Below, piece by piece: positions 20,416 through 24,700 of a stretch of 50,387 bases of DNA (position 1 is its first letter; each line of letters starts with the position of its first letter). Under the pieces are notes generated by a model. The model was not told the DNA's origin. It searched no databases and saw only the letters and a program-made list of their open reading frames with translations. The stretch is from Chryseosolibacter indicum. GTDB lineage: Bacteria; Bacteroidota; Bacteroidia; Cytophagales; Cyclobacteriaceae. The translations under genes and the position numbers were made by a program. The stretch spans positions 1-50,387 of the forward strand of contig NZ_JAHESD010000044.1 of NCBI RefSeq assembly GCF_018598585.1. The letters run 5' to 3'.

Positions 20416-20561
20416 TAATGTTAATTCTGTGTGCTCAAATACAGTAAATTTTAAAACCTATGCAATTGTTCTTCTGATTGATTAAAAAATTAAATAATCT
20501 TTCCAGCGTTTGGATAATCATGGCGGTCTTACCATTAAGACCAACATTAACTGAAAAGTTT

Positions 20562-21575
20562 ATGCATTTAAAAAAAGAAAAAAGCCTACCGGCTACCCTC
20601 GTTCAACTTGTTTTGATTATTTGTATTACCACCTTTATTGGTTGTGATGTGCTGGAACCTGATGAAATAGATGAAGAATCAGCGGTACAGTTAAATGCTG
20701 AACCTATTTATATCTCACCTTCAGGTTCTGGAATTATCGATCTTAAAGCTCTGATAACATCTTCATCCAATGTTAAACTATCAATTGCTTATCAACCAAA
20801 GCTTGGAACATTAAAATCATTAGGAGAATACCTGTTGGAGTACACCCCTAATAAAGGAGTGCGAAATGCAAGAGATCGATTTGGTATTTCCATTTTTGGA
20901 AAAAACAATGCAGTGATATTGCAAGACTCAATTCCAATTATAATAGGAGATTCAACAGATATTCCTTGCGGGATGTTTGCCAATAACGATTACATCTATA
21001 ATGTTCTTGGCCCTGTTGAGATTAACGTTCTCAGAAATGATACACTTTGCAATGGCAATAAGGCTGATCTCCAAGTCTCCATTCCTGCTATTGGGAGTGA
21101 TACAATACCGATGCCATCTCATGGAACAGTGCAGGTGTTATCAAACGGTAATATTCGTTATACACCAGGTGCGGGATTTAATGGAAACGACTCATTTGTT
21201 TATCGTATTGCGCTTGCGCAGGCAGGGGGTAGTGAGTTGATACGCCACGCCTTTGTATACATCAGTAAGACAAATAACTGTAGCGATAGCCTTACAGTTG
21301 TTGACGACTTGTATACTTTCGATATGGATACGGTTAACCTGTCTAAGCCTTTCCACATGGATGTGTTACGCAATGATGAATATTGTTATAATGCAAGACT
21401 GAAAATAACTGTGGTTGACCTTCCGCAAGGAAAGCTTGTATCGGATTCCACAAGGGGGTATTACTATACTTTTCCAGCAAATACTGTAACAGGTTTTACA
21501 GATCGATTTAAATACCGGGTTTGTTTAAATGATAGTATCTGTGAAGAAGCTGAAGTAACGATCGAAACCCGGTAA
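20562..21575 (+). CDS. Lipoprotein with tandem cadherin/Ig-like domains
   Basis: This is a surface or periplasmic lipoprotein of 337 residues. The ATG at 20562 gives a clean lipoprotein signal (KKEKSLPATLVQLVLIIC, lipobox FIGC, Cys28); the longer frame from TTG at 20478 would bury it and is rejected. After an acidic stretch (EPDEIDEES) there are three beta-sandwich-like repeats. The second contains VQVLSNGNIRYTPGAGFNGN and then DSFVYRI, the signature of bacterial cadherin-like/Big_9 domains. Paired cysteines recur about once per repeat. The gene lies just upstream of an ECF sigma factor gene but a terminator separates them. It could be an adhesion protein or a sensor lipoprotein for that sigma system; neither is shown. 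Confidence 0.88.
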   Translation: MHLKKEKSLPATLVQLVLIICITTFIGCDVLEPDEIDEESAVQLNAEPIYISPSGSGIIDLKALITSSSNVKLSIAYQPKLGTLKSLGEYLLEYTPNKGVRNARDRFGISIFGKNNAVILQDSIPIIIGDSTDIPCGMFANNDYIYNVLGPVEINVLRNDTLCNGNKADLQVSIPAIGSDTIPMPSHGTVQVLSNGNIRYTPGAGFNGNDSFVYRIALAQAGGSELIRHAFVYISKTNNCSDSLTVVDDLYTFDMDTVNLSKPFHMDVLRNDEYCYNARLKITVVDLPQGKLVSDSTRGYYYTFPANTVTGFTDRFKYRVCLNDSICEEAEVTIETR

Positions 21576-21593
21576 CCAACATCATAGTATCTT

Positions 21594-21624
21594 ATCATCC
21601 GCATGCATTATGCGGATGATTTTA
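21594..21624 (+). terminator. Strong hairpin between lipoprotein and sigma factor genes
   Basis: ATCATCCGCAT and ATGCGGATGAT form a perfect 11-bp stem with a GCATT loop, followed by TTTACTGTTTT. It fits an intrinsic terminator for the lipoprotein gene. The stem ends only 11 bases before the sigma factor ATG, so it could also affect sigma factor translation. Confidence 0.75.
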
Positions 21625-21631
21625 CTGTTTT

Positions 21632-22180
21632 ATGACTGATCGAGAATTAGTATACCAATGTGGGAAGGGGGATGCGGAAGCACAACGTATCCTGTATGAT
21701 CTCTACAAATACCGTTTAATGGGTATCTGCCGAAGGTATACATCTGGCCGTGAGGAGGCGCAGGATGTGTTACAGGAAGTATTTATAAAAATTTTTACTA
21801 AGATTAATCAACTGGATAACGTTGAGAAGCTGGAGAACTGGCTAATCAAAATTACAGTGAATACGGCTGTTAACTATTATCATCATGCTAAACGACTTCG
21901 TTTTGATAGCCTGGAAGAAATACAAGCTGAAAGTGGCGACTACGAGTTAATACTTTCAAATGTATCTGATGAGTTTTTGTTGGGTTTAATTAATGCTTTA
22001 CCTGATGGTTGTCGCGTGGTTTTCAACCTTTACATTGTTGAAGGTTATAGTCATGCTGAAATTGCAGAGATGTTGAATATTTCGGAGTCTACGTCACGTT
22101 CACAACTGGTTTATGCGAAGAATATTTTGAAGGATAAATTAAGTAAAGCAGGTGTTTTACGATATGAAAAGTATGCATGA
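21632..22180 (+). CDS. ECF-type RNA polymerase sigma factor
   Basis: This is an extracytoplasmic-function (sigma-70 group 4) factor of 182 residues. Region 2 covers about 8-80 with YDLYKYRLMGICRRY, DVLQEVFIKIF and LENWLIKITVNTAVNYY. Region 4 covers about 115-172, with a helix-turn-helix in YIVEGYSHAEIAEMLNIS followed by ESTSRSQLVYAKNILK, the usual ECF ending. Region 3 is absent, as expected. The next gene overlaps by 17 bp and carries anti-sigma-like features, so the two form a sigma/anti-sigma pair. The ATG start follows closely after a strong hairpin. The target genes are unknown. Confidence 0.96.
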   Translation: MTDRELVYQCGKGDAEAQRILYDLYKYRLMGICRRYTSGREEAQDVLQEVFIKIFTKINQLDNVEKLENWLIKITVNTAVNYYHHAKRLRFDSLEEIQAESGDYELILSNVSDEFLLGLINALPDGCRVVFNLYIVEGYSHAEIAEMLNISESTSRSQLVYAKNILKDKLSKAGVLRYEKYA

Positions 22181-23828
22181 CGATTTACCAGAAGATGAAC
22201 TGAAAAAAAGACTGGGGAATTTTAAGGAGTCGCCAGACGAAGGACTTTGGAAGAGAATCCAGGCGGGTAAACCTTCTGGAGATATAAACATTGCTGATAA
22301 ACTAAAAGCATATGAGGAAAAGCCTGATAATATTGTTTGGAATAATATTCGCACTGAAATTTATCGCCAACGCTTTGTAGATAGGCTTGACGTTGTACAG
22401 CACGTATTGGCAGTGGCGACAATGCTACTACTAATTCATCCAGGTTTATTCCAATCATTTGAAAAAATGGAAAAGCAAAAGGAGGCGCTACATATTGATA
22501 CATTATCGCTTAGGCTTTATACTTTAAAAGGTGCTGATACTTCCGCTAATGAGAACATTAAAAAAGGAATATATGACAATGCAGAGCGTGTTGAGCGGAA
22601 AAATAGTAAAGCAGTTAATAGTAACAATAGAAATGATAATTCGAGTGCCTATAATGATAGCAGAAAGCCTGGTGTAATTGACAGAAGTAGGAAGGCTATT
22701 GATCTAACAAAGGAGTCAGCCGTTAAGAGAAAGTATAGTAACGGGAAGTCTGAAAAAATCTCTGATTCCACTAATGTTTTTACAATAAGTGAAGATGTTT
22801 CCATTGTAAAAAAGGAATATCGAGCTAATGGTGTCGTTACTGCCGATAATACAGCATTGTCTTCTGGTGAAAAACTTTCTACCTCAGGCACAACAGCTCA
22901 CAAAGAACGCTTTGAACATAAGCTCCAAATGCAATCTAAAGAGAAGGCCAATATTAATCATAACATGTATTTAAAGGATACCGTTATTAACAAAAGTGAT
23001 TTTGAAGAACGCCTTGGTGCCCATATTCTCAACAACATACATTTTACTTCAGAACAGGATAATAAGTTTAAAGATGGCGTAATTCAGGATTCGGTACAGA
23101 AGAATGATTCAGTTTCCCGTGAAGTAGCTCACCTCTCAACAAACAAGGCAGATACTTTGGTTGCCAGAAAAATTATAATTCAAGATGATAAGGAAGAAAG
23201 AAACCAACACTTCTCTTTGTATGTGCTGGTGATGCCTACGCTCGGGTACCAACAGATAAAGCCTGTAAAAGATGATGGAATACTTGTTGAGAGCATAGAT
23301 AAATTGTCAGCATTTTCACCGAAAAGACTTGGTATTAGAGCAGAGTTTGGAGTAGAGAAGAAGTTGTCAGATAAGGTGGCTCTTGACCTGGGGCTGGTTT
23401 ATTTTCAACGCAAGCAAACGTTGCAATATCGATTTAGAAGTACAGCAGAGGTAGAGGTGACCCCCATTAACCCGGGCTCCTTAGAGTATGATATTTCTAT
23501 GGGTAACACGCATGATACTTATGAATATGAGCTTAAAAATTTAGGGATGCTAGCCGGCTTGAATTATACAATTAAAGCAAGGTCATGGATGCAAATGGTT
23601 GGTTTGGCAGCTGAGCTCCATCGTAACCTTTCAAAGTCCAATGGCCAGGTATATCTTTTTGGCAATGTGTATTACAGAGTTTCTCGTCAAATAAGTAGAC
23701 AGTTTCATTTAATAATTCAACCTACGGTTAATTACTCCTTAAATATGGGTAAACAAGTAGGTACTCCTTTTTACGTGAAGCCATACGGTTTAGGCTTAAA
23801 CTTTGGTGTATACTACCGGTTTGAATAG
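22164..23828 (+). CDS. Anti-sigma-like protein with predicted outer-membrane barrel (Dma-like)
   Basis: This 554-residue protein seems to span the whole envelope. Residues 1-70 are cytoplasmic and hold two copies of a motif, LGNFKESPDEGLWKRI and LKAYEEKPDNIVWNNI, like the N-termini of Bacteroidota anti-sigma factors. One transmembrane helix follows (about 78-96, VQHVLAVATMLLLIHPGLF). Residues 100-335 are polar, Ser/Asn/Lys-rich and probably disordered, long enough to cross the periplasm. Residues 345-554 alternate hydrophobic and aromatic residues as in an eight-stranded outer-membrane barrel, ending GLNFGVYYRFE. I recall this layout as that of the dual-membrane-spanning anti-sigma factors (Dma) of Bacteroides thetaiotaomicron. 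The ATG at 22164 is preferred to GTG at 22152; it overlaps the sigma gene by 17 bp. Confidence 0.85.
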   Translation: MKSMHDDLPEDELKKRLGNFKESPDEGLWKRIQAGKPSGDINIADKLKAYEEKPDNIVWNNIRTEIYRQRFVDRLDVVQHVLAVATMLLLIHPGLFQSFEKMEKQKEALHIDTLSLRLYTLKGADTSANENIKKGIYDNAERVERKNSKAVNSNNRNDNSSAYNDSRKPGVIDRSRKAIDLTKESAVKRKYSNGKSEKISDSTNVFTISEDVSIVKKEYRANGVVTADNTALSSGEKLSTSGTTAHKERFEHKLQMQSKEKANINHNMYLKDTVINKSDFEERLGAHILNNIHFTSEQDNKFKDGVIQDSVQKNDSVSREVAHLSTNKADTLVARKIIIQDDKEERNQHFSLYVLVMPTLGYQQIKPVKDDGILVESIDKLSAFSPKRLGIRAEFGVEKKLSDKVALDLGLVYFQRKQTLQYRFRSTAEVEVTPINPGSLEYDISMGNTHDTYEYELKNLGMLAGLNYTIKARSWMQMVGLAAELHRNLSKSNGQVYLFGNVYYRVSRQISRQFHLIIQPTVNYSLNMGKQVGTPFYVKPYGLGLNFGVYYRFE

Positions 23829-24671: not shown

Positions 24672-24700
24672 TGTGGCTGTGAGGTTATCTTACAGCCACA
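24672..24700. terminator. Hairpin between DUF4197 and SDR genes
   Basis: TGTGGCTGT and ACAGCCACA form a perfect 9-bp stem with an 11-base loop between convergent genes. The SDR stop codon (24685-24687) lies in the loop. ATTTCTT follows on the plus strand, so the T run is weak. Confidence 0.6.

Follow-up and report, generated by a model that had tools for sequence, protein, structure and literature searches.

Can a single protein extending from the cytoplasm as far as the outer membrane hold a gene switch? Two overlapping genes of Chryseosolibacter indicum raise this question, and our analysis of the 50,387-nt stretch that contains them (contig NZ_JAHESD010000044.1; hereafter the window) suggests that one such protein probably does. 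A first-pass annotation made from the letters alone had described an ECF sigma factor gene overlapped by a gene for an anti-sigma-like protein spanning both membranes, and both open reading frames (ORFs) lie where it placed them, on the + strand at 21632..22180 and 22164..23828. The first encodes an ECF sigma factor of 182 aa in which both sigma domains score above the Pfam cut-offs (Sigma70_r2, 5.8e-13; Sigma70_r4_2, 6.2e-13); the nearest NCBIfam model, TIGR02985, scores under its cut-off. The sigma gene stop ends at 22180 and the ATG of the following gene is at 22164, giving a 17-nt overlap.

The protein encoded by the second gene (554 aa, identified as Dma-like from its ORF, structure model, fold match and relatives) goes unmatched in both Pfam and NCBIfam at E ≤ 1. 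We modelled it with AlphaFold2 on an alignment of the window protein and 15 relatives (16 sequences). Three short N-terminal helices are followed by one long helix (residues 57–123) that spans the single hydrophobic stretch of the protein, near residues 77–95 (22392..22448, + strand; hydropathy maximum 1.75). No second inner-membrane helix is predicted, and the one helix originally described is thus retained. Residues 121–168 and 170–345 have pLDDT below 50, forming a tether of ~220 residues (residues 124–345 in our delimitation; 22533..23198, + strand) that is rich in K, S, N and D and has a mean hydropathy of -1.0; the disordered spacer, put at ~235 residues from the sequence, is reproduced nearly throughout 121–345. 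Eight main strands lie between residues 350 and 552 (23211..23819, + strand), with an additional hairpin in the second outer loop, and close into the C-terminal barrel that the first-pass annotation had anticipated. Mean pLDDT of the barrel blocks is 70–95. The whole model has a pLDDT of 59 and a pTM of 0.40, and its cytoplasmic part is weak because the N-terminal 120 residues reach a pLDDT of only 48–73. In Foldseek comparison with the PDB the top ranks are outer-membrane proteins (Pla/OmpT, 2e-7; OmpA, 4.6e-7), and NspA matches the barrel model with a target-normalised TM-score of 0.67. On this model the tether would be long enough to cross the periplasm and the barrel would be placed in the outer membrane.

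With the window protein as sole query, 12 of 59 genomes, among them its own, yielded relatives of the C-terminal part; alignment A2 gave a match in 66 of 98 genomes, many of the weaker matches spanning the N-terminal part only. The viral contigs contained no relative. Of 57 barrel proteins, 51 have a tether of 120 residues or more (the remaining six are without a clear tether length), and 29 of 54 have an aromatic residue among the last three. Locus L057, which is the same locus as L062, was left out of the tether counts and likewise of the motif count, the loop comparison and the sigma tree given below. Two apparent links to known proteins were discarded. A PDB profile search with the Dma alignment returned YukC (5.3e-5) and innexin (0.061), both taken as chance through helix and linker, and NCBIfam NF052375 matched two of the 16 members, yet also 9 of 14 control genomes, and was therefore dropped as a link to known anti-sigma factors.

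This architecture has been described before. Proteins named Dma (“dual membrane-spanning anti-sigma”) by Pardue and colleagues have, in the available portion of that report, an N-terminal anti-sigma region, one helix, a disordered tether, a C-terminal barrel and an adjacent ECF gene (PMC13088901), so the window protein is not a new architecture. The suggestion that it is a relative of Dma stands as a likeness of architecture compared by description: the helix, tether, closed barrel and ECF neighbour of the window protein correspond to the helix, long tether, barrel and ECF neighbour of Dma1 and Dma2 as that portion presents them, and the motif module may correspond to their anti-sigma region. 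Dma genes lie beside sigma factors of group ECF21; the neighbour in the window is certainly an ECF sigma factor and a possible member of that group. Loss of a Dma protein is described as freeing the sigma factor and increasing vesiculation, and a vesicle role for the window protein would be conjecture. Scanning genomes with the sigma alignment brought up 80 titled loci, which are all from Bacteroidota where the tree listing gives names; none of the 80 is titled Bacteroides.

The cytoplasmic part of the window protein had been read as carrying two LxxYxExPDxxxW motifs. Both are there (LGNFKESPDEGLW and LKAYEEKPDNIVW), the first with F in place of Y. A motif HMM scores copy 1 (KKRLGNFKESPDEGLWKRI; 22203..22259, + strand) at 21.4 bits and copy 2 (DKLKAYEEKPDNIVWNNI; 22296..22349, + strand) at 19.5 bits, and the 19-residue consensus is RDKFEDFEAEPSDGVWDKI. 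At least one copy was detected in 64 of 90 proteins: one in 58, two in four (window included) and six in two, the motif being undetected in 26. The control of 1800 shuffled N-termini gave four hits. These counts describe a tandem cytoplasmic module that is mostly single-copy and has two copies in the window; the position and conservation of the motif suggest that it may bind the sigma factor. The two proteins with six detected tandem copies ahead of the membrane helix are L074:6604-8391 and the protein 3' of the L095 sigma gene; similar repeats below threshold are visible by eye in others, such as L105 and L131.

Upstream of the sigma gene lies a gene for an Ig-like lipoprotein (20562..21575, + strand; Big_9, 2.1e-18), which is found beside the sigma–Dma pair in relatives as well. 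Its ATG was chosen by the signal peptide, the ORF being open from a TTG at 20478. The lipobox FIGC is followed by DVLEPDE, and the protein has an N-terminal domain of its own ahead of the Big_9 domains. AlphaFold2 predicts a mainly beta, multidomain protein behind the signal helix (pLDDT 78). The best Foldseek match is a fucoidan hydrolase chain (6dms), followed by many cadherin chains and by SGBP-B (6e57), a glycan-binding lipoprotein of Bacteroides; these alignments extend across multiple domains at large rmsd and thus indicate fold type only. The residue right after the lipid Cys (+2) is acidic in 27 of 30 lipoproteins, and 28 of 30 carry two or more acidic residues within +2 to +7. The published lipoprotein surface export signals (LES) are K-(D/E)2, SDDDD and SDDFE, the criterion being a pair of acidic residues that follows a positive or polar one close to the +1 cysteine (PMC5080379). 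The lipoproteins of these 30 are acidic there and resemble the published signals without equalling them, and a location at the cell surface is likely.

The lipoprotein gene travels with the regulator. Across 98 genomes, we took lipoprotein matches at E ≤ 1e-20 in open frames of less than 600 aa, which gave 22 places, and a Dma match lies within 4 kb of 21 of them (counted by eye); two of the 22 are tandem copies that share one Dma. Frames of 600 aa or more were excluded, most being large Big_9 proteins elsewhere in the genomes. Neighbours were also scored at 91 loci (the 80 titled loci, ten earlier ones and the window). A lipoprotein HMM matched 20 ORFs there, all 5' of the sigma gene on the same strand and 18 of them overlapping it or within 140 nt (435 nt in L066, 793 nt in L058). 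A lipoprotein is present at 20 of the 22 loci with the top sigma scores (≥239 bits; L057 and L062 being one locus) and at none of the remaining 69, five of which have less than 800 nt of upstream sequence. The sigma model was built from the lipoprotein clade, which biases this score, and we therefore made a sigma tree as well. On the tree of 94 sigma factors the lipoprotein label changes four times, compared with a mean of 17.4 for shuffled labels (0 of 500 shuffles as low). A clade of 21 rows with a support of 97 contains the window and 15 further lipoprotein loci; its five members without this type of lipoprotein (three Dyadobacter, L060 and L074) carry another upstream protein with a lipoprotein-like start, and three lipoprotein loci fall outside it (L058, L059 and L069). 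The upstream Ig-like lipoprotein is, by this distribution, characteristic of the sigma clade, and gene order makes this a three-gene unit of Ig-like lipoprotein, sigma factor and Dma.

Several single loci depart from this arrangement. The exception among the 22 places, L171 (G037), has a promoter-like site and neither sigma nor Dma nearby. In G066 a unit of this kind is headed by a 930-aa lipoprotein frame outside the length limit (L174), and in L178 (G068) two tandem lipoprotein genes lie 5' of the sigma gene, each with a promoter-like site before it. The L177 locus looks degenerate. The barrel is a separate ORF in L172 (G056), and the congener L173 (G094) has one continuous Dma gene. At L181:1253-2275 (G011; the same as L046), which lies between DUF4197 and cinA, the N-terminal domain of the lipoprotein runs into a shortened barrel; sigma and anti-sigma are absent and a promoter-like site is kept upstream. 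We read this locus as a deletion remnant; that the lipoprotein domain near the membrane and the barrel are the parts left over is no more than suggestive.

Of the two neighbours that had been proposed as the unit's own, the lipoprotein is borne out by its place beside Dma in 21 of 22 cases and the downstream DUF4197 gene is not. In 10 of 30 loci (L184, L188, L190, L191, L193–L197 and L202) cinA and DUF4197 are head-to-head neighbours and the unit is absent, which rules out both as members; three of these genomes, G013, G018 and G032, have the unit elsewhere. The unit comes and goes between two stable neighbours. The best promoter-model score before DUF4197 is only 8.7. In the window, a strong hairpin at 24672-24700 between the convergent DUF4197 and SDR genes has the appearance of an ordinary terminator.

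A promoter predicted to be read by the sigma factor itself precedes the lipoprotein gene. Upstream of this gene the clade shares a two-box consensus (TGCAACccTTT, 11 nt, cTGTCTTA), and a two-box model trained on the relatives, with the window excluded from training, finds TCCAGCGTTTG-11 nt-CGGTCTTA at 20502..20531 (+ strand), 30 nt before the lipoprotein ATG. The site scores 15.0, the top score of the 50-kb window; about 1.2% of shuffled upstream regions reach that value, so the score taken alone is modest evidence. Of 19 upstream regions, 14, the window's among them, have a best site with the two boxes precisely 11 nt apart; L070, with a site of 19.0 at this spacing, is a fifteenth case. Convincing sites are lacking in L053, L063, L064 and L066 of the first set, no match of at least 13 bits precedes the lipoprotein in four of 11 later loci (L172–L175), and the five clade loci with a different upstream protein all stay below 12. 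The most independent result comes from sigma genes of the wider family, beyond the clade: 24 of their 62 upstream regions score at least 12 bits, where shuffles predict 0.30. Under dinucleotide-type resampling, and after removal of two near-copies, this becomes 23 of 60, where 0.53 would be expected. Autoregulation therefore looks common in the wider family, many members of which seem to read this promoter and to regulate themselves. A paralogue in the window's own genome (L047) has a site of 24.0 directly before its sigma gene.

A strict pattern derived from this and related sites has a single exact match in the window's genome, at the 20502 site. Across four genomes, its exact matches fall on the operon promoters of G000, G017 and G002, with one extra match in G002; G026, whose own promoter deviates from it, has none. 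As the pattern was derived from these promoters, such matches speak to regulon size only. A wider regulon found no support: with one mismatch allowed, the four genomes gave 33 matches compared with 35 for the reversed-pattern control, G002 lying furthest above its control (10 versus 4).

Between the lipoprotein and sigma genes lies a terminator-like hairpin that could act as an attenuator (21594..21620, + strand), a 12-pair stem followed by TTTACTGTTT. It is listed by a terminator scan that found six such sites, compared with 2.7 in shuffles, and the intergenic stretch has a folding z of -8.5. Among the 18 loci with an intergenic stretch at this junction, z is -5 or lower in five (the window, L052, L053, L054 and L061), the other four with differing sequences and z from -5.0 to -7.2; the remaining 13 fall short of -5. 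Where the hairpin is present, partial termination may favour the lipoprotein over sigma and Dma.

The barrels of the lipoprotein clade carry a mark of their own. Comparing 19 of them with 38 others in window numbering, we found P358, P367, D371 and R388 each in 95% of the clade barrels, while the commonest residue in these columns reaches at most 28% among the 38 others plus the window; the comparison barrels are more divergent, which exaggerates the contrast and makes it partly an alignment effect. The four positions are located in strand 1 and loop 1, and a periplasmic N-terminus would put D371 and R388 in the first outer loop.

Sequence evidence supports the architecture, the operon, the promoter, the hairpin and the co-occurrence; sigma binding, membrane insertion, the release step, a lipoprotein–barrel contact and the signal are steps that we infer, and they would combine as follows. 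The barrel would sit in the outer membrane, the disordered tether would cross the periplasm and the helix would anchor the chain in the inner membrane, where the two W-motif modules would keep the ECF sigma factor inactive. A change of state at the barrel end would free the sigma factor to transcribe, from the CAAC/GTC promoter at 20502, the operon that encodes it. With the hairpin after the first gene, the main product would be the Ig-like lipoprotein, and small amounts of sigma and Dma would be made anew. The output of the switch would be the lipoprotein, which is probably located beside the barrel at the outer membrane and may act back on the barrel by way of the first extracellular loop with its conserved residues. 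The available portion of the Dma report states that deletion of dma2 in B. thetaiotaomicron strongly raises das2 and neighbouring genes (PMC13088901), which by analogy would follow the same logic. We consider it likely that the unit is a self-regulated switch of Dma type from outer membrane to DNA with the lipoprotein as its main product. That the lipoprotein is the specific ligand of the barrel, in a closed homeostat that makes more lipoprotein when the surface copy is missing, is a more doubtful extension. If it were true, a single chain from the surface to the sigma factor would report the amount of one surface lipoprotein, and the tandem motifs would let one Dma chain hold several sigma molecules for a sharper response.

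The role of the lipoprotein is where other accounts diverge. It is possible, if somewhat less likely than not, that the sigma–Dma pair acts as its Bacteroides counterparts do and that the lipoprotein is a target kept beside its regulator, with no feedback. The promoter that precedes the lipoprotein gene, the hairpin that parts it from sigma, the Dma loci entirely without this lipoprotein and the orphan lipoprotein L171 with its promoter-like site all fit such an account; the near-exclusive pairing with this lipoprotein across many genera, together with the clade-specific loop, argues against it. These same two features weigh on another account, in which the barrel is its own probe of failing outer-membrane protein assembly: a barrel left unfolded in the periplasm would be cut by a protease and the sigma factor released, the lipoprotein being a mere response product that never touches the barrel. 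An aromatic residue near the barrel C-terminus is expected of assembly signals, and the 29 of 54 barrel proteins with such a residue, the long unstructured tether of the AlphaFold2 model, well suited to cutting, and the promoter that puts the lipoprotein in the regulon are all consistent with it. The clade-specific residues, however, are conserved in strand 1 and the first extracellular loop, not at an assembly signal, and a general sentinel needs no dedicated lipoprotein in almost every case; we think this account rather unlikely.

A third departure concerns the two-membrane topology itself. The C-terminal domain might be a periplasmic beta domain or be cleaved off, leaving an ordinary single-pass anti-sigma factor, as could be argued from the downstream proteins of 175–284 aa without a barrel match in the same sigma family and from the separate barrel ORF in G056 (L172). 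Given the closed eight-strand model, with outer-membrane proteins as its best matches, and tethers long enough to cross the periplasm in 51 of 57 barrel proteins, we regard this as improbable.

In FecR-type signalling, too, an ECF sigma factor is under the control of the outer-membrane state by way of an anti-sigma factor in the inner membrane; receptor and anti-sigma are two proteins in that case, whereas the window unit has barrel and anti-sigma in one chain. The Rcs system is a phosphorelay, not an anti-sigma factor, and its signal is carried by the lipoprotein rather than the barrel. The pairing of a surface lipoprotein with an outer-membrane barrel as an envelope sensor nevertheless has a counterpart in RcsF-OmpA and RcsF-OMP of Escherichia coli, as the accessible parts of two reports present them (PMC7553776, PMC4942254). 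Within the Dma family, as covered by the available portion of its report, the window unit differs from Dma1 and Dma2 in the Ig-like lipoprotein that heads the operon, the predicted autoregulated promoter and the two docking motifs. There the dma2 neighbours encode DUF4943 and DUF4858 proteins, unlike the Ig-like lipoprotein of the window, and Dma3 of B. thetaiotaomicron, assigned to the family by its authors, carries at its own N-terminus a domain acting as sigma factor, the window sigma factor being a separate gene (PMC13088901). In open-licence papers we found no Dma locus reported with an Ig-like lipoprotein, with tandem docking motifs or with this promoter, and no description of the three-gene unit with its shared promoter and tandem docking module, the architecture itself being known. 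The authors of the Dma2 work hypothesise, in that same portion, that the barrel senses an unknown glycan (PMC13088901). The co-encoded lipoprotein adds a named candidate partner for what Dma barrels sense or control, with strand 1 and loop 1 as the candidate contact surface. The promoter signature could help to predict which genes this sigma family controls, and the differing numbers of docking motifs among relatives, from one to six, are natural variants that lend themselves to direct testing.

The window's own genome holds four paralogous sigma loci (L047–L050). Two of them, L047 and L048, have long downstream proteins that are Dma-like by length and position, with an OMP_b-brl_2 match of 1.3e-6 for L047 and of only 0.068 for L048; the other two have a short downstream protein and then a separate gene. 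Most sigma factors of the lipoprotein clade end in a YEK-like tail (alignment A1).
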